Shown one piece after another: positions 19,079 to 64,000 of a stretch of DNA of 64,000 nucleotides. The position numbers and the translations under genes are program-made. Each line of letters starts with the position of its first letter. Positions within the stretch are counted from its first letter, which is position 1. The stretch comes from Calditrichota bacterium (GTDB taxonomy: Bacteria > Zhuqueibacterota > Zhuqueibacteria > Zhuqueibacterales > Geothermadaptataceae), in the NCBI GenBank assembly GCA_008501765.1, contig QQUE01000002.1, positions 1,238,336 to 1,302,335 of the forward strand. Reading direction: 5' to 3'. The notes beneath the pieces are model-generated. The model ran no database searches. It had not been told where the DNA came from and saw only the letters and a program-made list of their open reading frames with translations.

Positions 19079-20306
19079 TTTTTAGCTTGGATTTGCTGGG
19101 CCCGGGAATTTTATTTGTAATTAGGGCAATATCGCCGGTCCTGTTCCTACCCTGAGATTTTGCCCAATACAGCGCCTGATCAACCATTTTGATGAGTACA
19201 GATATTTCGGCGGAATCTTCGGGCAACGAGGCAATACCGATGGAAATGGTTAATTTGCGGGTCTTGTTTGAATCCGAATTTTGTTGTGCGGATTTTTCAA
19301 CGGCGAGTCGTAGTTTTTCTGCTACTTTAAATCCTTGTTTCTTTGCTGTTTCCGGTAAGATTACCATAAACTCCTCCCCACCATAACGCGCAAGAAAATC
19401 ACCTTTTCGGAGAATTTTTTGCAAGCAGCGCACAACATTTTTCAAAGCAATATCTCCGACTGGATGGCCATATTTATCATTGTATTTTTTGAAATGGTCG
19501 ATATCGATCATCAGCAAAGTGAGGGGATGATTGTAGCGATGTGCCCGCTCGATTTCGTGTGAAAGTTGGTTGTCAAAAAAGCGCCTGTTGGGGATTTGCG
19601 TCAAAGAATCGGTTATCGATTGCTGTTGAAATTGTTCGAATTCATTAATTTTCGCTAGAATTTGACCCAAATGCGTCGTTAAATTATCTAGGAAAAAGAG
19701 TTCTTTTTCTGAAAATGCGTGTATTTTTTTGCTGTAAATTGTAAGATAACCAACTATCGCATGTTTTTTTAATAAAATGGGCTTAATCAGAAGGCAGCCT
19801 TGGTGAGAAAAAACTTTTTTGGATTTTGAATTTCGGAATTCAGGAATATCGGGAATATAAATATCCTGATCGTGCCGCTTCTTCTGTTCGTTAATTAAAA
19901 TTGATGGAATATTCAAACCTGCCGTCATCACCGTCTTATAATCATCGATTTTCTCATCCCTTAATTCAAGCCGTAATCCAGTAAATTTCAAGTACGATTT
20001 TAAAATAGTTTTCACTTTTTTTAGTACTGAACGCTGAGAGAATTCGTTGCTGAATTCTGCGAACAATTCGTACAGATGTTTGATTTCATCCGTATCGAGC
20101 TGAATTTTTGCAGCACCCAAATTAGTGTCGGACGAGTGGAAGTATTCATCGTTTTCTTTTTTTAAATGGATTGGAAAGTCGGGATATGTCGTTCCATTTT
20201 GTTTGGAACGGTGAAAACTTTTCATCCGGATTGTATTAAAAGTAGACGATTTTTGTTCATCCACTGACGATTTTGAAATTGGAATTATTTTCATTGTGCA
20301 GCCCAT
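19068..20306 (-). CDS. GAF-GGDEF diguanylate cyclase
   Basis: 412-aa predicted diguanylate cyclase making c-di-GMP from two GTP. A variable N-terminus (1-70), GAF-type sensor at about 75-225 (VGYLTIYSKK, FSEKELFFLDNLTTHLGQILAKI in positions 186-220), then GGDEF domain at 230-400: DSLTQIPNRRFFDNQL, MIDIDHFKKYNDKYGH, and the active-site GGEEF (309-313). The inhibitory I-site RKGD lies five residues upstream of GGEEF, so product feedback is likely. No EAL domain. The second Met (residue 5) is an alternative start. A very good sigma-54 promoter lies about 207 bp upstream at 20513-20528. Confidence 0.93.
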   Translation of the reverse strand: MGCTMKIIPISKSSVDEQKSSTFNTIRMKSFHRSKQNGTTYPDFPIHLKKENDEYFHSSDTNLGAAKIQLDTDEIKHLYELFAEFSNEFSQRSVLKKVKTILKSYLKFTGLRLELRDEKIDDYKTVMTAGLNIPSILINEQKKRHDQDIYIPDIPEFRNSKSKKVFSHQGCLLIKPILLKKHAIVGYLTIYSKKIHAFSEKELFFLDNLTTHLGQILAKINEFEQFQQQSITDSLTQIPNRRFFDNQLSHEIERAHRYNHPLTLLMIDIDHFKKYNDKYGHPVGDIALKNVVRCLQKILRKGDFLARYGGEEFMVILPETAKKQGFKVAEKLRLAVEKSAQQNSDSNKTRKLTISIGIASLPEDSAEISVLIKMVDQALYWAKSQGRNRTGDIALITNKIPGPSKSKLKIID

Positions 20307-20512: not shown

Positions 20513-20528
20513 GGCAATATGTATGCCA
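20513..20528 (-). promoter_or_regulatory. Sigma-54 promoter for the diguanylate cyclase
   Basis: On the minus strand: TGGCATA (20528-20522), CATA spacer, TTGC (20517-20514). It fits TGGCAYR-N4-TTGCW at every position but the last and has the GG-N10-GC core. Transcription would start near 20502 and run into the cyclase with a leader of about 195 nt. Confidence 0.65.
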
Positions 20529-28700: not shown

Positions 28701-29279
28701 TTGCCAATCGGTGCCGCCATCCACGATGGCGATGACAACCTCGCCTTGCTCGCCTTTCGTTACGTCCCAGGCTGCTTCGATGGATATGGCGCTGGTGTAG
28801 GTTTGATTTAAATAGTATGTGTCGTTGGGTGTGGCGGTGATGTGGTGAATGCGTTTAACTTCGGCGTATTCGATATTGGTGTCTGCCGAAAATCGGGCTG
28901 CCATTTGATGGGGATTTTCTTGTTCAGCAAATTTAAAATAATAAATACCATCGAGAATTTCAGCGCCTTTGGTCATCTTTGATTTGAAAACCGGCACAAT
29001 ATCCCGAATAGCATTTGTAGCAATTTTTTGTGCTAATGTGGAATAGGACATTGGGTGATTGGATTTGGCAAGGGCTGGCGATTTCCTGAGTTTGACAATA
29101 ATGACTCCCGGTACAATCTTTTGATCGGGGAGCGATTTTTTTTGTTTTTTAATGACCGGCTGACCAACGCCGAAATACGCCATTGCTGGCGTCGTTAAAA
29201 TGAGCGCCGAGATGACCAGAATTATTGAAGTGATAAATTTGGATTTAATTGGATTCAGTTTCACTGCCTTGTTTTTCAT
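25725..29279 (-). CDS. S8 (subtilisin-like) peptidase with type IX sorting-like tail
   Basis: 1184-aa secreted serine protease. Signal peptide (about 35 residues), an inhibitor-type propeptide (about 50-150) and S8 domain with triad Asp187 in VDGGTD, His248 in NHGTQTAG and Ser411 in GTSMAAP. After it come several beta-sandwich domains (NEGETIDLQLSF, VKYTLTN-like stretches). The last 80 residues are a canonical T9SS type A/FlgD-like tail: LAQNYPNPFNPKTRIEYSIP, VNIIVYNALGQ, VEWDGTNENN, SALYFYQLKTGK and KKMLLLR. It is probably exported through T9SS, cleaved and displayed on the surface. Confidence 0.94.
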   Translation of the reverse strand: MKNKAVKLNPIKSKFITSIILVISALILTTPAMAYFGVGQPVIKKQKKSLPDQKIVPGVIIVKLRKSPALAKSNHPMSYSTLAQKIATNAIRDIVPVFKSKMTKGAEILDGIYYFKFAEQENPHQMAARFSADTNIEYAEVKRIHHITATPNDTYYLNQTYTSAISIEAAWDVTKGEQGEVVIAIVDGGTDWQHTDLQENIWLNLDEIAGNGIDDDNNGFIDDVHGWNFNTKSGDPTGLDTQPANRNHGTQTAGIASARTNNNTGVAGMSWNSRIMPICVADVSTEESSGDGNIGFGFEGIQYAVENGADIINCSWGSAGSPSQFEQDVITFAHANGALIVAAAGNANSNNDIIPFYPAQYRHVVSVGATSDKDDKVLSSNYGLSVDIFAPGQAVYSTLHGDNYGSNTGTSMAAPIVAGIAALVKTKNPDWSPAQIKEQLRQSADWVDFTSTAARDKLAKGRVNALTALTGTGLTAVRLTDLSFQDSGGNGIINEGETIDLQLSFTGLLGAAANLEIQFSSPNIELEITNPVGTIPAIGAGETVTLPFSFTVAPGTPDNTSLLFTTVITGTDYIDYEIIRFKVRPPVFFDHDNGNLVASITSCGNIGFTGYADENDINGYAFLENGTGFVFKGINTLYESGLLIGSSPTQISNSIRPIDTNRFYEFTTPNDTSISVDLMDGTYERGRVTLFDSLASNPVGIKIVQDSYIYYDEPFNDFIIIKYTLTNLNSTSIEDVFAGIFVDWDINGDAVDYARFSEDQNLGWVQNTLNSPEILSGTMLLNPEIGIGFNAINNAFINDGFTDQEKWGMLSSGIQARSLNDLDVSTMISAGPLNFAAGESKVVAFAMVAGESVNDLQINASNAQLLWNNNLIPTSDESAPTTTTSIFLNPVNSKYANITVISDKSLQSPPSVHLIKNADSTQIAMAPITGTTTGFMGNHEFSSTGIYQLMTAVQPKYGADTTTIRDFTLSTFSPSQSTVITSLNADELFLPQASLDHDSYILAENVVENSEQILNISPKLALNESGRLTMQIRPELFDKSQLISIFMHDGTAWEQLSTQIDNENRTATAFIQKLGQFKLGIGAPTHISQQIPEVISLAQNYPNPFNPKTRIEYSIPNRTQVNIIVYNALGQAIKSLFSGFQEGGTYTVEWDGTNENNIVMPSALYFYQLKTGKEILIKKMLLLR

Positions 29280-30861: not shown

Positions 30862-30887
30862 ATCATATTGGAACGCAGCAAATTTTG

Positions 30888-32132
30888 ATGACAAGAAAAG
30901 CTTTCCATTTTTCACGCCTAATTTCGATTCATATTAGCCTGCTGTTTCTTGGAGGTGGATTGTCATCTCTCACCGCCCAAAACCTTGCATTTCAGCGCTT
31001 TCCGGATAGTTATTCAATTGATAATACAATCACGATCGGCTTGCTCAAGGGGGAACACGATCCGAAGGATATTTCAGTAAAGCTGCGACAAGGTGAATTT
31101 AAAGTAGTTGGCAATAGTGATAATGCCATGCCGTTTGAGGTTTCCGAATACTCTTCTGAATGGCTGGGGATTCGACTCAAATCAACGCAGCCGCAGGCTT
31201 TCTCCAGCGTAAAAGTTATTTTCTTTCGGTTTTTCGAGACAGACTCGGATTTATTGCGTGCCTTGTTGCTCGGCAAAGTCGATTATTCCGTTTTCCGTGG
31301 GCGAAAATTACTCGATAAATACTTGCCCGATTTACAAGGAATGCAACCCATACCTATCCGGCTTCCCAACAACACGGTAGATATGATTTTATATAATCTC
31401 AATCATCCGGTATTGAAAAGTACGAATGTCCGCAAGGCGATTTCGTTTTCAATCAAGAAAAATGAAATTGAAGAAAAAATCTTGCAAAATCAGGGCGAGG
31501 TAGCCAAAGGAAGTCCCTATGAGCCTGAAAGCGATTATTATCCCCCCGATGAAGGAATCGAGCATTATAATTATTCTCCACGTCGTGCCATCATGATTTT
31601 GAAACGAGATGGATGGGCTTTGAATGCCAACGATATTTTTGAAAAAAACGGCCAAAAACTCACTTTCCGGCTTGCCTTTAAAAAGGGAATTCAGCTCGAT
31701 AGAACGATGGCAACCAAAATCAGGCGTGATTTAAATTTGCGGGGTATGGAAGTAATTTTAATTGCTCAAACCAAGGTGGAATTAAAAAACAATTTTGCTT
31801 CCGGTGATTTTGATGCCGTTCTTTGGCATCATCAATTTGAGGAAAGCCCTTTTGCGCTCTATGATTTTTTTGTCAATCCGGAAACCAGTTTTATCAAGTT
31901 TGAAAATTCGACATTTACGCGTGCCTACAAACGCCTCCTGCGATTACCGGAAGATGCAAGAAAACCGGAAATTGACCGGCTGCAGATCATAACAAATCAA
32001 AAATGTATTGCGACCTATCTGAGTTTCCGGTGGTACTTGTATCATCTGTTCAACATAAATAGATTAACCAATTACTATTATGATGGTAAGTTAAATCCCT
32101 TTGATGAGTGGCAGATCGGGAAGAAAAATTAG
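30888..32132 (+). CDS. Family 5 extracellular solute-binding protein, shortened
   Basis: 414-aa periplasmic protein with a signal peptide ending SLTAQ. From about residue 110 it matches the SBP_bac_5 (peptide/nickel) fold: DLLRALLLGKVDYSVF, MILYNLNHPVLKSTNVRKAISFSIKKNEIE (segments near 165-190), YSPRRAIMILKRDGW and a DFDAVLWHHQFEESP strand. It is about 100 residues shorter than usual and lacks a typical domain I start. No ABC permease or ATPase gene is adjacent; instead a sensor kinase follows 5 bp later, suggesting a ligand-sensing role. ATG 30888 is chosen over the TTG one codon earlier. Confidence 0.8.
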   Translation: MTRKAFHFSRLISIHISLLFLGGGLSSLTAQNLAFQRFPDSYSIDNTITIGLLKGEHDPKDISVKLRQGEFKVVGNSDNAMPFEVSEYSSEWLGIRLKSTQPQAFSSVKVIFFRFFETDSDLLRALLLGKVDYSVFRGRKLLDKYLPDLQGMQPIPIRLPNNTVDMILYNLNHPVLKSTNVRKAISFSIKKNEIEEKILQNQGEVAKGSPYEPESDYYPPDEGIEHYNYSPRRAIMILKRDGWALNANDIFEKNGQKLTFRLAFKKGIQLDRTMATKIRRDLNLRGMEVILIAQTKVELKNNFASGDFDAVLWHHQFEESPFALYDFFVNPETSFIKFENSTFTRAYKRLLRLPEDARKPEIDRLQIITNQKCIATYLSFRWYLYHLFNINRLTNYYYDGKLNPFDEWQIGKKN

Positions 32133-32137
32133 CTTTT

Positions 32138-33928
32138 ATGGCTGAAAAAATAGCGTGGAAATTCCCTCATAACTTGCTCACCCGGCTATTGGCGTCCCAT
32201 ATCTTTCTTGTGGTAATTCCGCTCTTTTTAACCGGGCACATATTAACACAGGCGGCCAAAAGCTCCATTGAGGAAACCATAAAACATCGCAACCTGGAGA
32301 TTGCCAAACGCGCATCTAAGCAGGTGGAGCAACGCCTCGAGAGTATTCGGGATATTTTGCGCATCGTCGTGGAAAATCCCGATTTTTTTGAGATGAGCAA
32401 AATTGGCAAGGACCTCTTGCTGGGAGATATATTCTTAAAATACCCGGTTTTCCGCAACCTTATCGTTACCTCCATTGATGGGGAAATTCTCAGTTCGACA
32501 GGTTTGTATGGGGACACAGAAATTTTTCTAAAATCGAAATTATCGCCAATAATTGAGCAAGGCTCTTATGCCTCAGAAGTTTACCTTTCCGATGAAAATT
32601 TATTGATTATGGATCTTGGCGAAGTCGTCATCGATCGATTCGAACTGGCTGTTGGTGCGCTCTGCGCCGAAGTTGACTTAAGGGAATTGTGGACATTGGT
32701 GGATAGTTTCAACGAAAACAAAGTACTGGGTGAATCAGGGGAAGCTTTTATTTTTAAGGATGATGGACAATTTTTGGCGCATACGGATCGGACTAAGGTT
32801 CTCGCAGCAGCCAGCTTGCAGGATGAAGCGATAATTAACGATGTTCGCACTGGAAACAGCTCGAGCCTTCTGCATAAAACCCAGGAAGGCGTGGAAATGA
32901 TTATGGCTTATGCCCCGATTCCATCGATGGATTGGGGGATTGTTTTGCAGCAGCCGACCAGTGAAGCCTTTGCCCCGGCAACACGTATGCAGTACCAAGT
33001 TTTGATGCTGATGCTCGGCGGATTGGCCGCAGCGACCTTGGTCGCTTTTTTATACACGCGCAACTTTTTACGCCCAATTGATCGACTTGTAACCGGAATT
33101 ACAAAAATTTCCAGTGGCGACCTTTATTATCGAATTGAACCCCTCGGCAAAGATGAGATTTCTCAGCTGGCTGTACATATCAATAATATGTCAGCCAGAT
33201 TACGGACCATTCAAAATCAGTTAAAACGCACTGAAAGGCTTGAAACCTTGGGAAAACTTGCATCAGTTCTTTCCCATGAAATTCGTAATCCGCTCAATTC
33301 AATGGTTATCAATATGCAGATATTGCGCCGTGAATATAAAAAGGGTGGCCCCGACCTTGAAAAACTGGACCACTACCATAAAGTTGTCGTCAGTGAAATA
33401 AAAAGGGTCGATGAACTTGTTAGCAACTTTTTAATGATCGCGAAACCACCAAAATTGGAGCGGACCAAATGCGATTTGGCCAAATTGGTTGATGAAATCA
33501 TCAAATCACAGCAGCCTTCATTGCTACCCCAAGGGATTCGTACACAGCGGCTTTTTGATGAAAATCAATTGATAGTTGATGTTGATAGCAATAAAATCAA
33601 GCAGGTCTTTTTAAATATAATTCTCAATTCAGCACAGGCGATGCCGGGCGGTGGTCGACTTTTTATAGAATGTGGAAAAGCATTTCTTCATGATCAGGAG
33701 CGATCCAACGTCGCAAAGTTAGTCTTCCGGGATACAGGAAAGGGAATTACGGCCAGGACATTACAGCACATTTTTGATTTTTATTATTCTACAAAACCAA
33801 GAGGAACCGGCCTCGGATTGCCCATCGCCCAACAAATTATTGAAGAGCATGGCGGACTCATCAAAGTCGATAGTGAACTGGGTAGCGGAACCGTGGTTAC
33901 GCTGTATATTCCTTTGGCTGAACAATAG
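32138..33928 (+). CDS. dCache-type sensor histidine kinase, NtrB-like
   Basis: 596-aa membrane histidine kinase. A first membrane helix at about residues 22-42, extracytoplasmic double-Cache-like sensor (about 45-280), second helix at about 290-308, HAMP (NFLRPIDRLVTGITKISSGDL), then HisKA with LSHEIRNPLNSM (phospho-His about 380) and HATPase with NIILNSAQAM, DTGKGI and GTGLGLPIAQQI. The N box and G boxes are intact. ORF is open to GTG 32108 in the previous gene; ATG 32138 is the cleaner start. No response regulator is adjacent; the orphan NtrC-type regulator at 52663 is a possible partner. Confidence 0.92.
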   Translation: MAEKIAWKFPHNLLTRLLASHIFLVVIPLFLTGHILTQAAKSSIEETIKHRNLEIAKRASKQVEQRLESIRDILRIVVENPDFFEMSKIGKDLLLGDIFLKYPVFRNLIVTSIDGEILSSTGLYGDTEIFLKSKLSPIIEQGSYASEVYLSDENLLIMDLGEVVIDRFELAVGALCAEVDLRELWTLVDSFNENKVLGESGEAFIFKDDGQFLAHTDRTKVLAAASLQDEAIINDVRTGNSSSLLHKTQEGVEMIMAYAPIPSMDWGIVLQQPTSEAFAPATRMQYQVLMLMLGGLAAATLVAFLYTRNFLRPIDRLVTGITKISSGDLYYRIEPLGKDEISQLAVHINNMSARLRTIQNQLKRTERLETLGKLASVLSHEIRNPLNSMVINMQILRREYKKGGPDLEKLDHYHKVVVSEIKRVDELVSNFLMIAKPPKLERTKCDLAKLVDEIIKSQQPSLLPQGIRTQRLFDENQLIVDVDSNKIKQVFLNIILNSAQAMPGGGRLFIECGKAFLHDQERSNVAKLVFRDTGKGITARTLQHIFDFYYSTKPRGTGLGLPIAQQIIEEHGGLIKVDSELGSGTVVTLYIPLAEQ

Positions 33929-52662: not shown

Positions 52663-54027
52663 ATGATTCGAGTTCTCATCGCTGAAGACGATCGTAATAC
52701 ATTAACCGGGCTCGTTGAAATTCTCCGCCAGGAAGGATTTGAAGTCGTTGGGGCTGAGAGCGGTGAAGAAGCATTGCAGGTTTTGGCTTATCGACAGTTC
52801 GATATCTTATTGACCGATTTGCGTATGCCGGATATGGGGGGAATGGAGCTTTACGAAAAAGCTAAAATTCAAGCGCCGCAGATGAAAACGATCATCATGA
52901 CGGCCTTTAATTCGGTGAAAGATGCTGTCGAGGCGATGAAAGGTGGTGTTTACGAATATCTGACAAAACCGCTGGATCTGGATGAGCTATTTATCATTTT
53001 AAAAAAAGCCGTTGCCGATTTTGAGCTCGAACGTGAAAATGAGGAGTTAAAACACCGCCTCCAGGGTGTTTACCGGTTTGAAAATATTATTGGCACCAGC
53101 AAAGTAATGCAAGATGTTTTTCATGCTATTATTAAAGTCGCGAAGAGTGATTCTACAATTTTGGTCCGCGGTGAAAGTGGAACCGGGAAAGAACTTGTTG
53201 CCCGAGCTATCCATTATAACAGCCCGCGTATGAAAAACAGTCTCATCGAAGTGAGCTGTGCCAGCTTCCCTGAATCCTTGCTTGAAAGTGAACTTTTTGG
53301 ATATGAGAAAGGGGCTTTTACCGGCGCTGCAGGCAGAAAAGTTGGGCGATTTGAACTGGCGGATAACGGCACCATTTTTTTGGATGAAATAGGTGAAATA
53401 TCTGGCAATGTACAAACAAAATTATTGCGTGTTTTGCAGGAACGGGAAATTACTCGCTTGGGTGGAACGAGTGCGATAAATGTAAATACACGAGTAATTG
53501 CTGCCACCAACAGAAATTTAGAGGAGGCGCTTGATGATGGGCGTTTTCGTGAAGATTTGTACTATCGGCTGAACGTTATCCCAATTACATTGCCGCCACT
53601 GCGCGATCGTAAGGAAGATATTCCGCTGCTCCTCGATCATTTCATTCGAAAATATGCAAAATCCAATAACCGGGGACCGCTAACAATTCATGAGGATGTA
53701 TTAAATATTTGTCTGGAGTATCACTGGCCGGGCAATGTGCGGGAGCTCGAAAATGCGATGGAGAATGCTATTGTTCTCGGCGATGGTGATAAGGTTTTGC
53801 CTGAACATTTGCCGGTATTTATCAAAATGCGCAAATCTGACGCCGCAGGGGACATGGGGATGATTTTGAATGCTGGTGCATCTTTTAGGGAAAAACTGGA
53901 TTTTGCCGAAAAATTAATTCTTGAAGATGCCATACGGAACGCTAATGGGAACAAATCTGAAGCTGCCAAAAACCTGGATATCAGCGTTCGAAATATGCGC
54001 TATAAAATTAGTAAATACAACTTGTAA
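52663..54027 (+). CDS. NtrC-family sigma-54-dependent response regulator
   Basis: 454-aa REC-AAA+-Fis protein. Receiver domain at 1-120 with phospho-acceptor Asp52 (LTDLRMP), DD at 9-10 and Lys near 102. The AAA+ domain has Walker A GESGTGKE (170-177), GAFTGA (217-222), the sigma-54 contact loop, and Walker B LDEIGE. The C-terminal HTH (NGNKSEAAKNLDISVRNMRYKISKYN in segments) is Fis-like. It activates sigma-54 promoters after phosphorylation. No kinase is adjacent, but the orphan NtrB-like kinase at 32138 is nearby. The target operon with a matching promoter lies directly downstream. Confidence 0.95.
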   Translation: MIRVLIAEDDRNTLTGLVEILRQEGFEVVGAESGEEALQVLAYRQFDILLTDLRMPDMGGMELYEKAKIQAPQMKTIIMTAFNSVKDAVEAMKGGVYEYLTKPLDLDELFIILKKAVADFELERENEELKHRLQGVYRFENIIGTSKVMQDVFHAIIKVAKSDSTILVRGESGTGKELVARAIHYNSPRMKNSLIEVSCASFPESLLESELFGYEKGAFTGAAGRKVGRFELADNGTIFLDEIGEISGNVQTKLLRVLQEREITRLGGTSAINVNTRVIAATNRNLEEALDDGRFREDLYYRLNVIPITLPPLRDRKEDIPLLLDHFIRKYAKSNNRGPLTIHEDVLNICLEYHWPGNVRELENAMENAIVLGDGDKVLPEHLPVFIKMRKSDAAGDMGMILNAGASFREKLDFAEKLILEDAIRNANGNKSEAAKNLDISVRNMRYKISKYNL

Positions 54028-54099: not shown

Positions 54100-54321
54100 A
54101 TTCCTATCACTCGCTTACCCTATTTTTACAATTCAATTTTAAAGACATAACCTGCGTCATCTTTCTATGCAATTTTTTTCACCCATCAAGTGAACAAATT
54201 TGCACAATTTATATTAACTCAAATAAATGTATAAAAATAAATTATTTTATTTTGACATAAGTATTATAAAAACAGCTATTAAAAATAATGTCGATGTGTG
54301 CAGGATGTTAATAAATTCCAC

Positions 54322-54337
54322 TGGCATAGTGTTTGCC
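54322..54337 (+). promoter_or_regulatory. Sigma-54 promoter for the outer-membrane operon
   Basis: TGGCATA (54322-54328), GTGT, TTGC (54333-54336), C. It matches TGGCAYR-N4-TTGCW in all but the last base and has the GG-N10-GC core. A start near 54348 would leave a 140-nt leader to the lipoprotein at 54488, which has AAGGAGG at 54474-54480. Confidence 0.72.
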
Positions 54338-54487
54338 AAATGTGTGCTGTTAAATTTTCCATGGTTTTGAAAGGTGGTTTTGGTGCAAAAGAAATGCGTG
54401 GATGTGGCCAAATTTTTACCCCTTTTACAAACTTAAGCGATCATCCAAATCAATTAATCCTAATAACTTATTTAAGGAGGCGAGTAG

Positions 54488-55210
54488 ATGAGTTGGAAAA
54501 CAACAACTGCGGTTTTCATCAGTTTGATGTTGGCTGCATTGCTTGTTGGGTGTGCCGATGTGCCCTCGACTGGACCTGCCGCACCAGATTTAAAAGCCGA
54601 ATATCGTTTTATTAATGCTGATGTGGCTTTAGCTGGTGGTGCTGTTACTGTTGATGGAGCAGGTGCTGGAAGCCTGGCAAGTGCTGGTAGTGCTACTTCA
54701 CATCAGTCTTGGGATTCCGGTTCTCGGACTGTATCTTTTAATGGTGAAAGCATTAAAGTAAGTATGGAAACAGATTGGAGAGGTTCTGTTGTTTTGTTGC
54801 CACAGGTGACAATCGGTAATGAAACAGTGAGAAATTTCCTGAAGGTAAACGAGAGAAGAATTTTCGATTCACCAGTTGCTCCCAAAATTCAACTTGAAAA
54901 TGATGATGGATCAATTACTGAATTGGACGCTTCAATGTTCCGCTTCATTAATGCCTCTGACGTGTCTGTTGACGTTAATCTGTGGTTGAATGACAGTACT
55001 TCTGTAGACTTTGCGTCAGATGTTGAACCCGAAGGTTTTGCTAACTATGGCTCTATTGAGATGGCAAGTTATAAAGTCTATGTCACAGACCATACGACTG
55101 CTGATACATTAGCAACTTTTGACACTGGTGCGATGAGTGCCAAACGCTATACAGCCGTTGTCTGGGGTGCCGCTGGTGCAGTTGCCGGTAAAACTTTAGC
55201 AGATGATTAA
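54488..55210 (+). CDS. DUF4397-like lipoprotein
   Basis: 240-aa predicted lipoprotein with lipobox LVGC (Cys near 22). The N-terminal half is Gly/Ala-rich (GGAVTVDGAGAGSLASAG) and the C-terminal half (MFRFINASDVSVDVNLWLND, GFANYGSIEMASYKVYVTD, KRYTAVVWGAAG in segments) resembles the DUF4397 beta-sandwich. Such proteins sit on the outer surface or periplasmic face. AAGGAGG lies seven bases upstream of ATG 54488. First gene after the sigma-54 promoter and 57 bp before the TonB-dependent receptor. Confidence 0.75.
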   Translation: MSWKTTTAVFISLMLAALLVGCADVPSTGPAAPDLKAEYRFINADVALAGGAVTVDGAGAGSLASAGSATSHQSWDSGSRTVSFNGESIKVSMETDWRGSVVLLPQVTIGNETVRNFLKVNERRIFDSPVAPKIQLENDDGSITELDASMFRFINASDVSVDVNLWLNDSTSVDFASDVEPEGFANYGSIEMASYKVYVTDHTTADTLATFDTGAMSAKRYTAVVWGAAGAVAGKTLADD

Positions 55211-55267
55211 TCCATTGCTTTTTTGAATTAAATAATTGAAAAATAAACGTTTTTAGGAGAAAACCTT

Positions 55268-58200
55268 ATGAAGCGTTATTCACTGGTAATCCTCTTGTTA
55301 GCTTTGCTGCTTCCTGCCATGTTGTTTGCACAAACGACAGGGAAGCTGAGAGGTGTGGTAGTCGATAAAGAGTCCGGCGACGCCTTGCCAGGAGCAAACG
55401 TCACAATCGTCGGAACCACGCTCGGCTCCGCGACAGACGTGAATGGTGAATTCATCATTCTTAATGTTCCTGCAGGTCATTTTAGTGTTAAAGGCTCCTT
55501 TATTGGTTACCGTGACGTAACTATGACAGGTGTTGTTGTCAATGCTGGTTTGACAAAAGAAGTTAATTTTAATCTTCCTACAGAGGCCCTGGAGGGATCT
55601 GAGGTGACCATCGTGGCCGAGCGTCCGTTGGTTGAAAAAAATGCGACCAGTGCTGTTCGTATTCAGACATCTGAGCAGATCGAAAAAATTCCTGTACGTG
55701 GTGTCGCAAATATTGTCGCGCTGCAACCAGGTGTTGTTCGTCAAGATGGCGATATCTATATTCGTGGCGGTCGTCGTGATGAAGTTGGTTACTTCCTTGA
55801 AGGCGCCAACACACGTGACGGAGTTGATGGTCGCGATGCTGTTTCCGTTATTCCTGAAGCACTTGAAGAAATTCAGGTTGAAGCTGGTGGATACACCGCT
55901 GAATTTGGTGGTGCGAACTCAGGTATTGTTCGGCAATCATTGAAAAGCGGCAGTGAAAAATATCAATTTTCCGTTCAAGCGGAAACTGATAATTTTGCTG
56001 ATCCTGGTGAACAATTTCTCGGTACCCATTCTTATGGCTACAGTGATTATACATTGACAGCCAGTGGTCCTGTTCCCGGCGTTGATAAACTGCGTTTTTT
56101 CTTTGCTGGTGAGAATGAATTTCGTCGTGACCGTAATCAGCGGTTTTGGGAAGGATTTGACATCAATCATAGTGATACATACGTTGATGAAAATAATTTC
56201 CCGCTGGTGATCGATGATTTATCAGCCCGCCAGGAAGCACAAGATTTTCAGACAATGATACAGCAGCAAGGTCTGCATATGCGCGATAATTTCACTGAAA
56301 ATGCACTTAGTGAGCGTTGGACGGGCAATGGAACTTTGGTTTACGACGCCAGTCCATTTATTGTTCGCTTAGGTGGTGCTTTAACTTTTCGTCGAAACCA
56401 AGGGGATACATTTACTAATCTCCCGGCGCGTATTTTCAATTTGGAAAACCAAACAATTGCTGATCAATCGACAGCATTGCTTAATTTAAAACTCACTCAC
56501 CTGGTTAATCCAACGACTTTTTGGGAAGTGAATTTAAACTATTTTGACAAACGAAATATTAATTATGATCCGGTTGCTGCAGACAGGCACAACTATTTTT
56601 CTTACTGGGATAGTACAGCCAATGCAGCGCAGGGTGTGACATTCGACCGTTATTTTAGTCCAAATGTATCCCCTGTTGGAAATACATTTACTATCAACCG
56701 TTTCACCTTTAATGCTCCAGGCAGCCCTGCTGGTTATAATAAATACAAGCGTGGTTACTTTGGTGGTAGTTTCGCGTTGACCACACAGGTTAAGGATCAT
56801 GAGGTCAAGCTTGGTGGCCATGCTGAACTGAACACAATCCGTAATTATGCTGTCGGTCCGCGGACCATGTTGACCAGAGCCCGTGCTTTTCCTGATGATT
56901 TTCGTGATGCATATTCTGGAGATGAAGTAGCGCAGGATGCATGGCTCGTGAATATGGGAATGCGCAAAACGTACGGCTATGATCCTTTTGGTAATGAAAA
57001 TGATATTGACGGTCCTAATGGTGCACGTAAACCTTCACGTTATTCCGCTTATTTGCAGGATAAATTTGAATTGTCAGACCTTGTTATCAATGCTGGTTTG
57101 CGTCTCGACATTATTGATAACGATGATTTTATTATAACGGATCTCGCAAATCCTGCCTGGGACAATGAAAACAGTGTGCTGGATCAGTCCAAGCTACAAG
57201 ATAAAGATCCTGCTGTTGAACTAAGCCCACGTCTTGGTGTTGCTTTTCCAGTAAGCGATCGTACGGTATTCCATATGCAGTATGGTAAATTTGTACAAGC
57301 CCCACGTCTCGACCAGCTTTACGCCAATAATGCCTGGTATAATGCTATTTTCATCGGTGGGTCATCCTTTCAGACTGGAAATGTTGGTAATGGACTTGAT
57401 CCTCAGAAAACTGTTATGTACGAAGTCGGTTTCAGTCAGCAATTTACTGACGCCGCTGCTTTTGATATAACTTATTTCTATAAAAATATTACTGATCAGA
57501 TTCAAACAGAACGCATTGTTGTTGATGCTCTTTCATCTGCAAAAGGTGATTATAATATGCTCACCAATGGCGACTTTGCTACAACAAAAGGTCTTGAATT
57601 GCAATTGAATTTGCGTCGTACAAATCGTTTGGCTGGTCAAATAAATTACACCTTCCAGAGCGCTAAAGGCTCCGGTTCGGTTAACAATAATTCTATAGCC
57701 GGCCTTGAACTTGGTGAAGCTGTTCCAACGGTTATTCAGCCATTGGATTTTGAACAACCACAACGTGGTTCCGTCAATCTCGATTATCGTTATGGCAAAG
57801 GTGATGGCGGTTCTGTCCTGGAACAGTTTGGCATTAATATACTTACGACTTTTAACAGTGGTCACCCTTATACTTTATCCGAAGGTAACTTTGGCCAGCA
57901 GCAAGCTTCCATGGCTGGGCAAATTGGCGATCCACGTGACCGTCGGCCTCTGGAGCAAGTAAATGCATCGTTGACCCCATGGAATTTTCAAATGGATGTG
58001 CGTATCGATAAAACGGTCGATTTTGGTAACCTCGGCGTTAATTTCTATGCCTACGTGCAGAACCTGACTAACCGTGAAAACATAATCAATGTTTATTCCC
58101 GGACCGGAAATCCATACGATGATGGATTTGTCGGTAATGAGGATTTGAGTAGTTCACTCATCGCATCCAATGGTGGTGATGCCTTTTTGGCAATGCACAA

Positions 58201-58306
58201 TGCCATTAATCTTAATGGTAACGGTGTCAACTATTCCATAGATACGGGAAACTACTTGCTCGGTATTCCTCGCCTCTTCCGTTTAGGTGTCAGATTGTCT
58301 TATTAA
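55268..58306 (+). CDS. TonB-dependent receptor with N-terminal regulatory domain
   Basis: 1012-aa outer-membrane receptor. A signal peptide ends FAQTTG-like (about 22 residues); a carboxypeptidase-regulatory-like beta-sandwich follows (about 26-105: GKLRGVVVDKESGDALPGANVTIVGT), then the plug (VRIQTSEQIEKIPVRGVANIVALQPGVV, IYIRGGRRDEVGYFLEGANTRD, ~130-190) and the 22-stranded barrel ending in LFRLGVRLSY. The regulatory domain resembles SusC-type receptors. Substrate not predictable. It needs the ExbB-ExbD-TonB system encoded at 13474-15603. No SusD-like protein is adjacent. Confidence 0.93.
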   Translation: MKRYSLVILLLALLLPAMLFAQTTGKLRGVVVDKESGDALPGANVTIVGTTLGSATDVNGEFIILNVPAGHFSVKGSFIGYRDVTMTGVVVNAGLTKEVNFNLPTEALEGSEVTIVAERPLVEKNATSAVRIQTSEQIEKIPVRGVANIVALQPGVVRQDGDIYIRGGRRDEVGYFLEGANTRDGVDGRDAVSVIPEALEEIQVEAGGYTAEFGGANSGIVRQSLKSGSEKYQFSVQAETDNFADPGEQFLGTHSYGYSDYTLTASGPVPGVDKLRFFFAGENEFRRDRNQRFWEGFDINHSDTYVDENNFPLVIDDLSARQEAQDFQTMIQQQGLHMRDNFTENALSERWTGNGTLVYDASPFIVRLGGALTFRRNQGDTFTNLPARIFNLENQTIADQSTALLNLKLTHLVNPTTFWEVNLNYFDKRNINYDPVAADRHNYFSYWDSTANAAQGVTFDRYFSPNVSPVGNTFTINRFTFNAPGSPAGYNKYKRGYFGGSFALTTQVKDHEVKLGGHAELNTIRNYAVGPRTMLTRARAFPDDFRDAYSGDEVAQDAWLVNMGMRKTYGYDPFGNENDIDGPNGARKPSRYSAYLQDKFELSDLVINAGLRLDIIDNDDFIITDLANPAWDNENSVLDQSKLQDKDPAVELSPRLGVAFPVSDRTVFHMQYGKFVQAPRLDQLYANNAWYNAIFIGGSSFQTGNVGNGLDPQKTVMYEVGFSQQFTDAAAFDITYFYKNITDQIQTERIVVDALSSAKGDYNMLTNGDFATTKGLELQLNLRRTNRLAGQINYTFQSAKGSGSVNNNSIAGLELGEAVPTVIQPLDFEQPQRGSVNLDYRYGKGDGGSVLEQFGINILTTFNSGHPYTLSEGNFGQQQASMAGQIGDPRDRRPLEQVNASLTPWNFQMDVRIDKTVDFGNLGVNFYAYVQNLTNRENIINVYSRTGNPYDDGFVGNEDLSSSLIASNGGDAFLAMHNAINLNGNGVNYSIDTGNYLLGIPRLFRLGVRLSY

Positions 58307-58376
58307 TTCAAAGAATTCGAGTTGGTTCGAATATATTCTCAAATTTAGTGAATCCTAACAAGGGAGCTAAATCATA

Positions 58377-61300
58377 ATGAAGAGAAATTTAAGTAAAATC
58401 TTTCTAGCGGTTGCTGTGTGCATGTTTCTGCTTAGCGGAATCGCATTGAGTGCAGAAGCCGATGGAAAGGTTACTCTTGGCAAACGCTCGAGCGGCGAAG
58501 TTATCCTGCAGGATGACAGCCCTCGTGCAAATAGAACGCTTGTTAATGTCGGGCAAGTGGCGATGTGGATTTATGCTGACGGGGGCTCTGCTATCACCCC
58601 TGGTGGCGATTCCGGCTTGTTTTACCCTCGAGGTTCCACACCAAATACAGCCGTTATTTTTCAAGACGGTATGGTTTGGGGCGGCCTTGTAAACGATGGC
58701 GAAACACCCGCCCTGCGCGTGGGTGGCCAAACCTATAGTATAGGTACGGTTCCGGGAGCCATTCTCAGTAAAGGTGTCCCTGAAGATAAGGATGATTTGG
58801 CTGTTCGTCGGGTTTGGCGAATACGCCGCGATTATCCGATTGCTAACCTGCAACAAGATGCGGCCGAATTTTTCCAAATTAACGCATCTGCTGTAACTAC
58901 GGGGAACATGGATCAGTTGCGTGCATTGTATAAGTCAGACTGGGTGGATTGGCCTGCGGAAAAAGGCGCGCCTTTTTATGACGTCGATGGTGATGGTATT
59001 TACACACCAGGTTTTTATACTGACGCAACTGGTGTTGAATGGCCAAAATTACGCCCGGCTGACGGGGAAGAATTCAATGCGGCTATTCATGCCGATGAAC
59101 CTGGTGTTGCAGGCGCTGATCAGGTTGTCTGGTTAGTTGCCAACGATCTCAGCGATAATGAAGTTAGTTCAATGTATGGATCACCTTCTATCGGCCTGGA
59201 AATGCAACTTACTATATGGGCTTATGCACGTTCAGATGCCGTCGGTAATATTATTTTTAAGCAGTTTCGTGTTATCTATAAGGGAACGGAGACAACCCCT
59301 GTTAACGCGACTATTGACTCTATGTATATGTGCCAGTGGTCTGATCCTGACCTCGGTGGTGCCGGTGACGATTTTGCCGGTTGCGATACAACTTTGAGTC
59401 TTGGTTTTGCTTATAATTCATCTTCAAATGACGCTGTCTTTTCCAAAGCCGGCCTGGCACCTCCTGCCAGTGGGTACGACTTTTTTGCCGGCCCACTCGT
59501 TGAGGACCCTGAAGGTACAGCTATCTTTGGCCTTAAAGAACGACCTGGTTTTAGAAACCTGCCGATGACATCTTTTGCGTTCTTCGCGGCCGGCCAGGGC
59601 GATAGCGATCCAACACGTGGTGGTAACTATGATGGTACACGGCAATGGTGGAATTTGCTGCGTGGATTCCGTCCACGTCCGGAAGAACCTGCTGAACCAT
59701 GGACTAATCCATTTACAACTGAACGTGTTATGTTCCGTGTTCCTGGTGAAGATCTTAACGGTTCGGCTTCAGCAGCGAACTGGATTGATGAAAACCCGGG
59801 TGACCGTCGCATTTTATTGGTTTCCGGTCCTTTCACAATGGCCTACGCTGATACACAAGAAGTTGTAGTTGCAGTTATCGGTGCATTAGGCTCTGATCGT
59901 ATTTCTTCTGTTTCCGCATTGAAGTTTTATGATAAATCCGCACAATTTGCTTTTGATAACCTTTTTGACCTACCGAAACCTCCACCAGCACCGTCCGTCA
60001 CTGGGACAGCGCTGGATGGAAGGATCCTTCTCAACTGGGGTGACAAGCCAGATGCTGTATCCGCAACCGAGAAACATGAGAACAAAGGATATACTTTCGA
60101 AGGTTATAATATATATCAACTGCCAAATGCAGGAGCAAACCAATCACAAGGTGTGCGTATTGCAACTTATGATGTCATTGATGAGGCGACAGTAATTTCT
60201 CAGGACGCCTTTGATGAGTCATCTGGCCTTGTTCTAAATTTACCTGTTCAATTTGGTACAAACAGTGGTATTTTTCACAGTGAAGTGTTCACTAAAGATG
60301 TTATTCGTGACAAACCATTGTTGAATGGCCAGGTTTATTACTTCGGTGTCTCAGCATACAATTTCAATGGAGCTGAAGTTACAAAGACCTTGGAAAGCCC
60401 GATGTCGGTTGTTACAGTTGTTCCACAAACAGCAAAACCCGGCGACCGTTTGCACGCTGCTGTAGGCGATACTGTAAGTGGTGTTGATCATGCTGCTGGA
60501 CCGAGCGACGGATTTGTCGTTGTTAAAGTAATTGATCCAACCAAAGTGACAGGTGATGATTATACTGTTACTTTCCGTATCGATACCGTCAGCGCCGATT
60601 TGACCGATCCGGAACATCCGGTTTATGAAACAGAGGATGTATGGGATCTCACAAATACGACCACAGGTGCGAAAGTGCTCGAAAAGCAAACAAACCAGTC
60701 GGGTGATGAAGCCTATCTCATCGTTGATGGATTGATGGTGAAAGTATTTGGTGCCCCATCTGACTTTGCCCGTATGGCAAATGGCGATCCTGCTATAATT
60801 GAAGTTGCCAACGAAAATGGTCCATTAGCCGAAGCGGATTTTGATGCCAATGGCGCCCCGTTTGGCGGCAACAACGTATGGCACAGCCTGAATTCGTCAA
60901 GCTCGGCAGATCGTTATTTTGTCAGCACCGCGAGCGCAGATGAAAGCGCTTTAGGATTTAATGCTGCTCTTGCTGTGCCGTTTGATTTTGAAATCCGCTT
61001 TACAACACTGGAAGAAGGCAGTTACGGCTGGTGGGCTTTTACCGATGGTTCTGTAGGAAAAATCCCATTAACAATCTGGAATGTGGGTTCGGGAACGCCG
61101 GATGACGCCAGCGATGACGTTCAGTATATTCCGATTATGTTTGAAGGCGGCGGTACTCCTGGTTCCTATACGCCGGATCATGGTCCGGACGGCGCCTTCG
61201 GTTATCCTGCTTTTGACCGTATCTATTTCTATGCGCCGGCTCCTGGAAATACCTATGCTGACCATCATGCTGATATCGAGGCGGATGGATCGCTTGATGC

Positions 61301-61805
61301 TGATTATTCTGCTGCAAGCAGGGAATTTGGCCGTGTTCTCGTTTGTGATTTTGATCAAAATGGTGCGCCGCCAATTCCGGGAACTGTCGTACGTATGTAC
61401 ACGACCAAGCCAAATACACCGAAAGATTTATTTACTTTCTCTACCGCTGGTTTGAATCCAACAACGAGCACTGCAGCCAAAGAGGCAGATATGGATCTCA
61501 TCAATGTATTCCCGAATCCATATTATGGCCTGCACGAATTTGAGACGAATCGTTTCCAGCGTAGCGTGACATTCAGTCACTTGCCTGCACAGTGTACAAT
61601 TCGCATTTTTAGTCTTGCCGGTGTTCTTGTACGAACTATCGAAAAAGATGATGATAAGCAGTTCAGTGCATGGGACCTGCTCAATGAGCAAGGCCTGCCA
61701 ATCGCAAGTGGTCTGTATCTTGCGAATGTCGAAGTACCGAATTTTGGCAGCAGGATATTGAAAATAGCAATTGTAATGGAACAGCAATACCTCGATTACT
61801 ATTAA
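58377..61805 (+). CDS. Large secreted protein with Fn3-like and type IX sorting-like domains
   Basis: 1142-aa exported protein, signal peptide ending LSAEA. Residues about 60-520 are a large beta-rich unit without a recognised name. A fibronectin-like segment lies at about 535-685 (PPAPSVTGTALDGRILLNWGD). The final 90 residues form a T9SS/FlgD-like tail: INVFPNPYYGLHEFETNRFQ, VTFSHLP, CTIRIFSLAGVLVRTI, FSAWDLLNEQGLPIASGLYLANVEV and KIAIVMEQ (segments). No catalytic motif seen. It lies between the TonB-dependent receptor and a PorV protein, so it is the probable surface cargo of this module; binding to the receptor is inference. Confidence 0.82.
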   Translation: MKRNLSKIFLAVAVCMFLLSGIALSAEADGKVTLGKRSSGEVILQDDSPRANRTLVNVGQVAMWIYADGGSAITPGGDSGLFYPRGSTPNTAVIFQDGMVWGGLVNDGETPALRVGGQTYSIGTVPGAILSKGVPEDKDDLAVRRVWRIRRDYPIANLQQDAAEFFQINASAVTTGNMDQLRALYKSDWVDWPAEKGAPFYDVDGDGIYTPGFYTDATGVEWPKLRPADGEEFNAAIHADEPGVAGADQVVWLVANDLSDNEVSSMYGSPSIGLEMQLTIWAYARSDAVGNIIFKQFRVIYKGTETTPVNATIDSMYMCQWSDPDLGGAGDDFAGCDTTLSLGFAYNSSSNDAVFSKAGLAPPASGYDFFAGPLVEDPEGTAIFGLKERPGFRNLPMTSFAFFAAGQGDSDPTRGGNYDGTRQWWNLLRGFRPRPEEPAEPWTNPFTTERVMFRVPGEDLNGSASAANWIDENPGDRRILLVSGPFTMAYADTQEVVVAVIGALGSDRISSVSALKFYDKSAQFAFDNLFDLPKPPPAPSVTGTALDGRILLNWGDKPDAVSATEKHENKGYTFEGYNIYQLPNAGANQSQGVRIATYDVIDEATVISQDAFDESSGLVLNLPVQFGTNSGIFHSEVFTKDVIRDKPLLNGQVYYFGVSAYNFNGAEVTKTLESPMSVVTVVPQTAKPGDRLHAAVGDTVSGVDHAAGPSDGFVVVKVIDPTKVTGDDYTVTFRIDTVSADLTDPEHPVYETEDVWDLTNTTTGAKVLEKQTNQSGDEAYLIVDGLMVKVFGAPSDFARMANGDPAIIEVANENGPLAEADFDANGAPFGGNNVWHSLNSSSSADRYFVSTASADESALGFNAALAVPFDFEIRFTTLEEGSYGWWAFTDGSVGKIPLTIWNVGSGTPDDASDDVQYIPIMFEGGGTPGSYTPDHGPDGAFGYPAFDRIYFYAPAPGNTYADHHADIEADGSLDADYSAASREFGRVLVCDFDQNGAPPIPGTVVRMYTTKPNTPKDLFTFSTAGLNPTTSTAAKEADMDLINVFPNPYYGLHEFETNRFQRSVTFSHLPAQCTIRIFSLAGVLVRTIEKDDDKQFSAWDLLNEQGLPIASGLYLANVEVPNFGSRILKIAIVMEQQYLDYY

Positions 61806-61895
61806 TGGTAACCTGAGTATAGACATGTTTTTTTAATGGCTGTACAGGAAATGTAAAATAATAAAGTAATAGTTAATTATTAGGAGTCAAAAACT

Positions 61896-62942
61896 ATGAA
61901 GCACTCTTTAAATAGATTCATGGTCATCTTGGTTGCGCTCCTGCTTCTCGTGAGCGTAAGCGGGTTTGCCCAGGAAGCTCGAACAGGTACCAACGCTGCT
62001 TCGGAATTGCTGATCCCTGTCGGTGCCCGGTATATCGGGATGGGTGGCGCGCCACTTGCTGTCGTAAGTGGAATCGATGCTATCTATTATAATCCGGCTG
62101 GTTTGGCATCCTCCGATAAATCAGCCTATGGTATGTTTTCACAGATGAGCTATATCGCAGATATCGACGTAACGTATGCTGCAGCCAGTGTTAACTTTGA
62201 AGGATTTGGTTCACTAGCTTTTGCTGTCAAATCTCTCAACGTTGGTGAAATAGATATTACCACAGTCGATCTTCCCGACGGTACTGGTGCTACTTTTAGC
62301 CCACAGTTCTTGACTGTAGGTTTGACGTATTCCAGAGCTTTAAGCGACCGTGTTTATGTTGGTGTTACTGGTAACCTGGTTTCCGAAACCATGGATCGTG
62401 TAAAAGCATCTGGTATGGTTTTCGATTTTGGTGTGCAGTATCGTGGTGTTGGCCAGATCGATGGCTTAAGCCTTGGCCTCGCAGTGAAGAATATTGGTCA
62501 ATCAATGCAATTTGAAGGTACAGGACTTGTCCGGCAAACAAATATCCCCGATGGTGATCGTCCTACTTCACCTACGGGAGTTGTTGCTCAGACGGATGAG
62601 TTACCAACTTCATTTGAAATCGGTTTGAATTATTCAATGAAAATTGATGAAAGAAGTACAGTTGATTTTTCTTCTTTGTATCAAGAGCAAAGTTTTCTCG
62701 CTGATATCACAAAACTTGGTGTTGAGTATTCATTTGACAATATGGCTTTCCTCAGAGCCGGATATTCAATATCACCAGATGCACTTGACCTCAATGATGA
62801 AAATGTTTACAATTATGGTTTGACTTTAGGTGCCGGCCTGCAGTACAGCATCAATAATGTTGATGTCCGTCTGGACTATGCGTTCCGTCAGGTTGAATAC
62901 TTTGATTCAAACAATGTTTTCAGTTTAATATTTGGATTCTAA
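61896..62942 (+). CDS. PorV/PorQ family outer-membrane protein, fourth copy
   Basis: 348-aa PorV-like barrel. A signal peptide ends SGFAQ; the PorV signature follows (ELLIPVGARYIGMGGAPLAV, SGIDAIYYNPAGLA in segments), then strands SAYGMFSQMSYIADIDVTYAAASVNF. The barrel closes with VRLDYAFRQ ... NNVFSLIFGF. Closest in layout to canonical PorV. Presumably the shuttle for the large sorting-tail protein just upstream. ATG 61896 is preceded by AGGAG 10 bases upstream. A strong terminator ends the operon. Confidence 0.9.
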   Translation: MKHSLNRFMVILVALLLLVSVSGFAQEARTGTNAASELLIPVGARYIGMGGAPLAVVSGIDAIYYNPAGLASSDKSAYGMFSQMSYIADIDVTYAAASVNFEGFGSLAFAVKSLNVGEIDITTVDLPDGTGATFSPQFLTVGLTYSRALSDRVYVGVTGNLVSETMDRVKASGMVFDFGVQYRGVGQIDGLSLGLAVKNIGQSMQFEGTGLVRQTNIPDGDRPTSPTGVVAQTDELPTSFEIGLNYSMKIDERSTVDFSSLYQEQSFLADITKLGVEYSFDNMAFLRAGYSISPDALDLNDENVYNYGLTLGAGLQYSINNVDVRLDYAFRQVEYFDSNNVFSLIFGF

Positions 62943-63564
62943 TCTGAAAATATATTAGTTTAAAGCCCCGAATTTTCGGGGCTTTTTTTTTTGTCTTCCT
63001 TTTAAAGTTGAACGTGATGAGAAACGGTCGGTCTTAATAAAAAAAAGTTAAGTTCATGGCATAAATAATTTGACTATTGGTTAAATTGTCACTTCTTTAT
63101 AAAATTAACGCTACGTGATAGATTTTAATTAAATATTCAGAGCATTTAACGCACGGTTCCTGCTCTATATATTGTAAATTACACAGTTTGTGAATTAATC
63201 TTGGAACTTGCTCAAGCCCCATATTCAGTAGCGTGTTGTTGAATTGTTAACCAATTATGCAGTAACGCATAGATTCGTTTTGTTATTAAATTGGAACGAA
63301 CTTGCACCTATAAGGTATAGAAGGAGAGTTTGTTTCCTTTTACATAACTCAGGTTTAATATTCTAAAAATTATTCCGTTCGACAGGAGATTACATATTTC
63401 CATAATCCTGAACTCTTTATCTCGGTTAAACCGATTGTATTTATCAATGTTCTTCAAGGTTGGTATTGAAATGATGGAATAGCATTTTAATGCAATTCTC
63501 AACGTGGCGGGATAATCATAAAATTATTTTATCCATCATAACTTTTAAGATTAAAGGCACAAAA
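62943..63564. other. Intergenic region before the right-edge gene
   Basis: 622 bp. It contains the terminator at 62962-62992, then AT-rich sequence without repeats, RNA motifs or ORFs I can support. The promoter of the GWxTD-like gene must lie here, but no close match to either sigma-70 or sigma-54 consensus was found. Confidence 0.5.
62962..62992 (+). terminator. Rho-independent terminator after the PorV gene
   Basis: AAAGCCCCGAATTTTCGGGGC followed by ten T; 8-bp stem with a short loop. Ends the 54488-62942 operon. Confidence 0.9.
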
Positions 63565-64000
63565 ATGACTGGTCATGCGTTTTTTCAAAAAGGAAAAATA
63601 GGAATTACACTTCTGTTGCTCCTTTTTTCTGCACAGAATACTTTTGCTCAATCTTCTGTGCGTGCTAATTTGGATGGGGCTTATTTCCAAGGTGCTGATA
63701 GTAATTATTATTTAGAGGTTTATTACTCAATCGCAGATGCGGTGTTTGCTGAAATTCAGACAAAGAATAATAAAGCTGAGGCTGGCATTGTATTCAATCT
63801 GGTGATTACCCGAGATGATTCAGTTTGGGCAACAAAAGTTTGGAAGGTTGAGAAAACTATTGCAGATTCGACGCTGGCACAATCACAAAATTCTGTTGTC
63901 GATGCATTGCGGTATGTGGCAAACAGACCTGGAAAATATAATGTCAAATTGTATACAAGAGCTATGGATATTTCCGGATATCCCGATAGCGCTCAGGTCG
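63565..64000 (+). CDS. GWxTD-domain-like secreted protein, 5' part
   Basis: Truncated by the window edge: 145 complete codons from ATG 63565, no stop. A signal peptide (MTGHAFFQKG, then a Leu-rich core, ends FAQ/SS) is followed by a domain with YYLEVYYSIADAVF, AGIVFNLVITRDDSVWATKVWKVEKT and PGKYNVKLYTRAMD (segments). This pattern is that of the N-terminal half of GWxTD-domain proteins of the FCB group. The GWxTD motif itself would be further right and is not visible. Function unknown. Confidence 0.6.
   Translation, partial: MTGHAFFQKGKIGITLLLLLFSAQNTFAQSSVRANLDGAYFQGADSNYYLEVYYSIADAVFAEIQTKNNKAEAGIVFNLVITRDDSVWATKVWKVEKTIADSTLAQSQNSVVDALRYVANRPGKYNVKLYTRAMDISGYPDSAQV

Follow-up and report, generated by a model that had tools for sequence, protein, structure and literature searches.

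We report a sigma-54 (-24/-12) promoter with a candidate tandem enhancer in front of an operon for four envelope proteins in a Calditrichota bacterium, a lipoprotein, a TonB-dependent receptor, a 1142-aa surface protein ('BIG') and an outer-membrane barrel of the PorV/PorQ family. We think it probable that a two-component, sigma-54-dependent switch here controls one outer-membrane nutrient-import operon. The locus lies in a window, the whole stretch of DNA analysed, of 64,000 nt from a 5.9-Mb assembly (99% complete); the closest named record to the source genome is 'Calditrichaeota bacterium CLD5', followed by 'candidate division KSB1' metagenome-assembled genomes. Coordinates are window positions unless preceded by a locus label, and gene starts are those of the longest open reading frames (ORFs), which may be off by some codons.

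A conserved sigma-54 promoter

The element, TGGCATAGTGTTTGC at 54322-54336 on the forward strand, matches TGGCAYR-N4-TTGC perfectly, with GG and GC 10 bp apart, and agrees with the extended TGGCAYR-N4-TTGCW context at every position except the final W. Transcription is predicted to start at about 54347-54349, and the lipoprotein gene lies 166 bp downstream of the element. The motif alone is insufficient as proof, since its count within the window is not above chance: with one mismatch allowed, TGGCAYR-N4-TTGC was found 5 times, against 6.4 expected. Genome-wide, there are 16 perfect sigma-54-like sites, twice the 8 found with the reversed pattern; of these, 14 lie between genes, 38-222 bp before an ORF, with flagellar genes among them. 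The genome encodes rpoN (PF04552, E 1.3e-60).

Decisive evidence for the promoter came from comparison between genera. Mean intergenus identity is 72% in the 15-bp promoter core, compared to 27-30% in the flanks, which is chance level. The orthologous operon is preceded by TGGCATGGGGTTTGC in the relative designated G001, by TGGCATGGAGTTTGA in G002, TGGCATGGAGTTTGT in G004 and G006, TGGTATGGAGTTTGC in G034, TGGTATGGTCTTTGC in G019, TGGCACTTCATTTGC in G014, TGGCATGCGCTTTGC in G010 and TGGCATATCGTTTGC in G009, and by weaker versions in G022 and G003. On this comparative basis we regard the element as confirmed, that is, as real and conserved. An initial annotation of the window had called a -24/-12 promoter at this position, and the call has held: consensus match and conservation between genera coincide, rpoN is found in the genome, and orthologous operons bear the element.

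A candidate tandem enhancer

Between the promoter and the regulator gene upstream of it lies a candidate enhancer, or upstream activating sequence, which the initial annotation had overlooked. It extends over 54167-54205 (forward strand) and reads ATGCAATTTTTTTCAC-CCATCAA-GTGAACAAATTTGCAC, with 16-bp dyads at 54167-54182 and 54190-54205. Such enhancers consist of two dyads of the RTGCA-N6-TGCAY type, whose starts are 21-24 bp apart; their TGCA half-sites recall NtrC sites. Here, the enhancer starts 155 bp before the -24 box, with ~120 bp from its end to the promoter. Tandem dyads were present in all 12 operons of relatives compared. The distance from their start to the -24 box falls into two ranges according to the group of families, 144-155 bp and 113-117 bp, which differ by ~40 bp, close to four helical turns. 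These first 12 enhancers were spotted by eye and then scored, each with p<=0.04 and mostly <0.005 in a shuffle test; the subsequent genome searches were independent of that selection.

Across 63 class genomes, perfect tandem dyads of the form TGCAN6TGCA-N8-10-TGCAN6TGCA are found at only 5 sites, and downstream of each stand a -24/-12 element and a gene for a DUF4397 protein or a TonB receptor. A joint scan for enhancer and promoter over 2.35 Mb, which covered loci picked for the operon or the regulator, gave 16 matches, all before these operons, and 0 in reversed sequence. The unbiased test was a search of 82 genomes of the phylum: the two enhancer-plus-promoter patterns yielded 13 + 16 = 29 matches, compared to 0 + 0 in the reversed control, with none in the 19 genomes that fall outside the class. 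Of the 29, 16 stand before a gene for a DUF4397 protein or a TonB receptor; the remainder, some of which lie within ORFs, are probably chance matches or belong to other sigma-54 genes. These genome counts take the relatives as they stand, uncorrected for kinship. The only match in the source genome is the one before this operon, the other 15 perfect sigma-54-like sites being without enhancer (scores of at most 15/20, versus 18 here).

One could argue that the -24/-12 match is due to chance and that the inverted repeat is simply the terminator of the regulator gene, given that the motif is not above chance in a single window and that the repeat lies 140 bp past the regulator stop. A terminator scan found nothing at the repeat, however, and repeat and promoter recur together, at fixed spacing, before operons that are unlinked to the regulator (in G007-G011, G013, G014 and G022). 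We have therefore rejected the repeat as a terminator; these copies already refute the explanation as a whole, which retains at most a negligible probability. Phylogenetic footprinting, the conserved enhancer and the finding of the same switch ahead of further TonB-receptor operons, SusC-SusD pairs among them, support the initial proposal that the sigma-54 promoter drives the operon of lipoprotein, TonB receptor, C-terminal-domain protein and PorV/PorQ-family barrel. An intrinsic terminator (62962-62985, forward strand; a 10-bp stem followed by a T-run), scored as strong in the terminator scan, closes the operon directly 3' of the barrel gene.

The regulator and its candidate sensor

The gene upstream of the enhancer (52666-54027, forward strand; the last codon before the stop ends at 54024) encodes an NtrC-type response regulator with a receiver (Response_reg, 2e-27), a sigma-54 AAA+ domain with GAFTGA motif (Sigma54_activat, 1e-70) and a Fis-type helix-turn-helix (HTH_8, 2e-9; all Pfam). 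Its score of 431.1 bits against the NtrC equivalog model TIGR01818 is below the cut-off of 558.6, and it is also below the AtoC and ZraR equivalog cut-offs; the protein is NtrC-like, not NtrC. The promoter had been described as lying just behind this activator gene; the gene is indeed upstream, but 295 bp separate its stop (54027) from the element.

The regulator forms an orthologue group of its own, present in 26 of 40 relatives at 59-88% identity (paralogues share at most 50%). In 24 orthologues, GAFTGA is invariant and the recognition helix nearly so. The orthologues sit in a ClpX-Lon-EngB-aminotransferase-serA-regulator cluster; the operon is found directly behind the regulator gene in six genomes (G000, G001, G002, G004, G019 and G034) and within ~6 kb of it in four more (G003, G005, G024 and G028). 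Enhancer and promoter are both present at all ten linked operons. Real sites score 14.3-16.3, and the 14 regions that follow unlinked orthologues of the regulator reach 13.8 at most, indicating that the switch travels with the operon rather than with the regulator gene. Where the switch precedes a TonB-receptor operon, the genome also has the regulator orthologue in 20 of 21 cases; the remaining one is G006, an 83% complete genome whose sister in the same genus, G004, does encode the regulator. Within the 40 genomes searched for the regulator, 16 of 24 switch matches precede such operons where the orthologue is present, and 0 of 3 where it is absent.

From these sequence comparisons, the regulator is likely to be the activator of the operon and would bind the enhancer. 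Alternatively, promoter and enhancer could be real and yet be served by another NtrC-type protein, with the neighbouring gene merely a member of a housekeeping cluster. The location of the regulator in a ClpX-Lon-EngB-serA block that is class-wide, with or without the operon, would fit this alternative, as would further NtrC-type genes in the genome. We nevertheless consider it distinctly unlikely, as the switch is found in all ten linked operons, the regulator accompanies the TonB-receptor site in every genome but G006, and recognition helix and enhancer are both nearly invariant.

Assuming that the neighbouring regulator is the activator, a candidate for its cognate sensor is encoded elsewhere in the window, on the forward strand, by the genes for an SBP_bac_5-type solute-binding protein (30885-32132) and an orphan dCache-HAMP-HisKA kinase (32108-33928; both by Pfam). 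The two genes are adjacent in all relatives examined. No response regulator was found beside the pair, either in the window or in the relatives examined, nor any kinase beside the regulator, including unlinked orthologues, in any genome examined. Presence of kinase and regulator is concordant in 37 of 40 genomes (24 with both, 13 with neither). This co-occurrence, which is suggestive rather than proof, makes the kinase with its solute-binding protein the likely partner of the regulator.

The operon proteins

The four genes and their order, as read in the initial annotation, were borne out, all on the forward strand. The lipoprotein (54488-55210; Pfam DUF4397, 2e-8) is predicted to comprise two Ig-like domains (AlphaFold2 model, pLDDT 89); the nearest fold in the Protein Data Bank (PDB) is the extracellular domain of PepT1/PepT2, a tandem Ig (E 3e-8), which binds trypsin (PMC4597091). 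The receptor (55268-58306) has a SusC-like start with CarboxypepD_reg-like and Plug domains (Pfam CarbopepD_reg_2, 7e-18; Plug, 3e-7) and scores 66 bits against TIGR04056 (SusC/RagA; cut-off 368). Profile searches gave no SusD match among the four operon proteins.

The large protein (58377-61805) has no Pfam domain. Across its family, all 20 members match the PorZ model at the C-terminus, and 16 of the 20 match TIGR04183 (E<=0.01); the sorting-like tail initially ascribed to the 1142-aa protein is hence recognisable in the family, but falls under the TIGR04183 cut-off in this particular member. The best PDB fold for its model (pLDDT 83) is PorZ (5m11; E 4e-7, with a low TM-score), and the fold search otherwise gave a weak likeness to β-sandwiches of glycan-active enzymes. 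We refrained from naming a substrate from these fold matches, as they are too weak. A PDB profile search returned weak matches as well. The protein is highly paralogous, with 17 matches in its own genome, and in relatives such genes are found head-to-tail, three to four per array (L051:108-11500; L107:2-10091).

The barrel (61896-62942) scores 170.8 bits against NF033709, the PorV/PorQ subfamily model (cut-off 90), and, within this family, 95.3 bits for PorQ versus 64.9 for PorV, well below the 250-bit cut-off of the PorV model NF033710; it also matches BamG weakly (9.7e-9). The fourth protein had been named PorV, which is right as to the family, while by score it is nearer PorQ. PorQ of Porphyromonas serves as the surface anchor of PorZ (PMC5562754), making an anchored pair a better model for the two proteins than a shuttle with released cargo. 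The genome further encodes SprA and a C25/PorU-like protein of the type IX secretion system (T9SS); a search for the GldM/PorM motor gave no match, with the control set equally silent. A subtilisin-like protease in the window (25725-29279, reverse strand) has a T9SS type A sorting domain of 34.5 bits, above the curated cut-off of 23, and so represents a canonical T9SS cargo in this genome.

The same switch in related genomes

Four relatives (G003, G005, G007 and G037) have the switch in front of a different TonB receptor. This receptor is paired with a SusD_RagB protein in G003 (PF07980, 1.4e-8) and in G007 (3e-4, below cut-off), and those of G005 and G037 are similar to them. That one switch regulates operons of either architecture argues for a common function, the import of nutrients across the outer membrane. 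In this view, SusD is replaced by the large protein, which would then be the importer's binding component, displayed at the surface. In another scenario, the operon would build or maintain the surface, as an S-layer-like protein with assembly factors, or assemble other outer-membrane proteins, the receptor helping in assembly or supplying energy. Such a role would suit the size of the large protein and its many paralogues, which form arrays of as many as four genes in relatives, as well as the weak BamG match of the barrel and the conserved GWxTD gene nearby. A SusC-SusD pair under the same switch speaks against it, and NtrC-type control of one target fits inducible uptake better than a structural coat, so that we see this scenario as rather unlikely.

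Related operons conserve the receptor, the large protein and PorV together, a check that had been put forward in the initial annotation. The trio also occurs in records of Gemmatimonadota, Ignavibacteria, Latescibacterota and Marinimicrobia, where the joint scan gave no match for the switch. Within the class, DUF4397 protein, receptor, large protein and PorV are also encoded in paralogous operons, often with a gene for a lone receiver protein of 130-140 aa directly upstream (own contig C6, L032:3514-12576; further L047, L050, L052 and L056). The promoter is absent from these lone-receiver copies (those of own C6, G007, G012, G013 and G034_C88), which may represent a second mode of control. As the trio outside the class and the paralogues within it are both without the switch, the sigma-54 wiring is an innovation of the class, added to an operon that is itself widespread.

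Other sigma-54 elements and neighbouring genes

A further perfect sigma-54 element in the window, TGGCATACATATTGC (20514-20528, reverse strand), is intergenic, lies 222 bp before a GGDEF-type ORF (19068-20306, reverse strand) and is without this type of enhancer. About 5-8 kb past the window end (contig C8, L178:7522-9978, reverse strand), a TonB-receptor-like gene stands directly behind a perfect element, TGGCACATAAGTTGC, also without enhancer, and is possibly another sigma-54-controlled receptor with another activator. On contig C12 (L066, L067 and L068), perfect elements are located 48-69 bp before genes that read as FlgB-, FliR- and FlgF/G-like; flagella seem to be sigma-54-controlled in this lineage. 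Behind the operon, a gene for a GWxTD-domain protein (63490-64000; also L035:14826-16361; PF20094, 1e-16) is a conserved neighbour of PorV in most relatives, and forms a separate unit in this genome.

Discussion

The proposed switch would operate as follows. The dCache kinase, fed by its solute-binding protein, would sense a periplasmic ligand and phosphorylate the regulator at receiver Asp51, whereupon regulator dimers would bind the two conserved 16-bp dyads. In keeping with the established biology of bacterial enhancer-binding proteins (bEBPs), the AAA+ hexamer would loop over ~120 bp to the sigma-54 holoenzyme at the conserved promoter and open it. Gene order and terminator suggest a single transcript for lipoprotein, receptor, 1142-aa protein and PorQ-like barrel, ending at 62985. 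The T9SS translocon would then export the large protein, and its PorZ-like C-terminal domain would hold it at the surface on the PorQ-like partner. There, large protein, receptor and lipoprotein may jointly capture the substrate, which the receptor would import with TonB energy, the large protein being to it what SusD is to SusC.

Parts of this scheme have parallels in known systems. As in NtrC/NtrB-type systems, a response-regulator bEBP with GAFTGA and a Fis-type helix-turn-helix is combined with tandem dyads 110-155 bp upstream and a -24/-12 promoter; unlike there, the regulator is an orphan under the NtrC, AtoC and ZraR cut-offs, and it would serve an operon for import at the surface instead of nitrogen metabolism. 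SusC-SusD and RagA-RagB of Bacteroidota likewise comprise a TonB receptor, of SusC type there and with a SusC-like start here, encoded with a surface partner, and the identical switch of the relatives drives a true SusD_RagB gene; here, in contrast, the 1142-aa protein with its T9SS-like C-terminal domain and the PorQ-like barrel replace SusD, and control is by sigma-54, while SusC-SusD in Bacteroidota is usually under hybrid two-component, SusR or extracytoplasmic-function (ECF) sigma-factor control. The Porphyromonas PorQ-PorZ pair resembles the adjoining genes for a PorV/PorQ-family barrel and a protein that has PorZ as the best match for its C-terminal domain, but here they are encoded with a TonB receptor and a lipoprotein rather than with secretion genes, and the N-terminal part of the large protein is without sequence kinship to PorZ. 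A sigma-54 regulon survey predicts, unconfirmed, sigma-54 control of TonB in Flavobacteriia; the accessible part of that survey mentions neither Calditrichota nor SusC and describes no enhancer (PMC12316311). None of the papers in the collection searched links sigma-54, a TonB receptor and T9SS.

Several observations weigh against our interpretation. The evidence is wholly sequence-based. The genome holds other NtrC-type genes, two more of them at 45-46% identity, and six regulator-bearing genomes (G012, G017, G027, G029, G035 and G038) have, with the patterns used, no such site before a TonB receptor. Co-occurrence of kinase and regulator is at clade level (~11 families), its Fisher p of 1e-7 being uncorrected for descent. 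TIGR04183 scores 17.3 bits in the 1142-aa protein itself, under the cut-off of 23, and the fold leads conflict, the lipoprotein pointing toward the PepT1/2 domain and the large protein toward sandwiches of glycan enzymes.

More tentatively, one may picture for the class as a whole one common two-component switch with sigma-54, which has a solute-binding protein and a dCache kinase as a sensor pair of its own and is attached interchangeably either to SusC-SusD or to a receptor with a T9SS-displayed, PorQ-anchored giant protein as SusD-equivalent; the latter would constitute a second architecture of capture complex. In an essentially uncultured class, for which almost nothing is known on regulation, our results define a code, made up of promoter and enhancer, for an import regulon of the outer membrane. 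Since the same switch also drives SusC-SusD, they tie the widespread, so far unexplained trio of TonB receptor, giant C-terminal-domain protein and PorV of FCB phyla to nutrient uptake, and both the substrate and the idea of a T9SS-displayed partner become testable.

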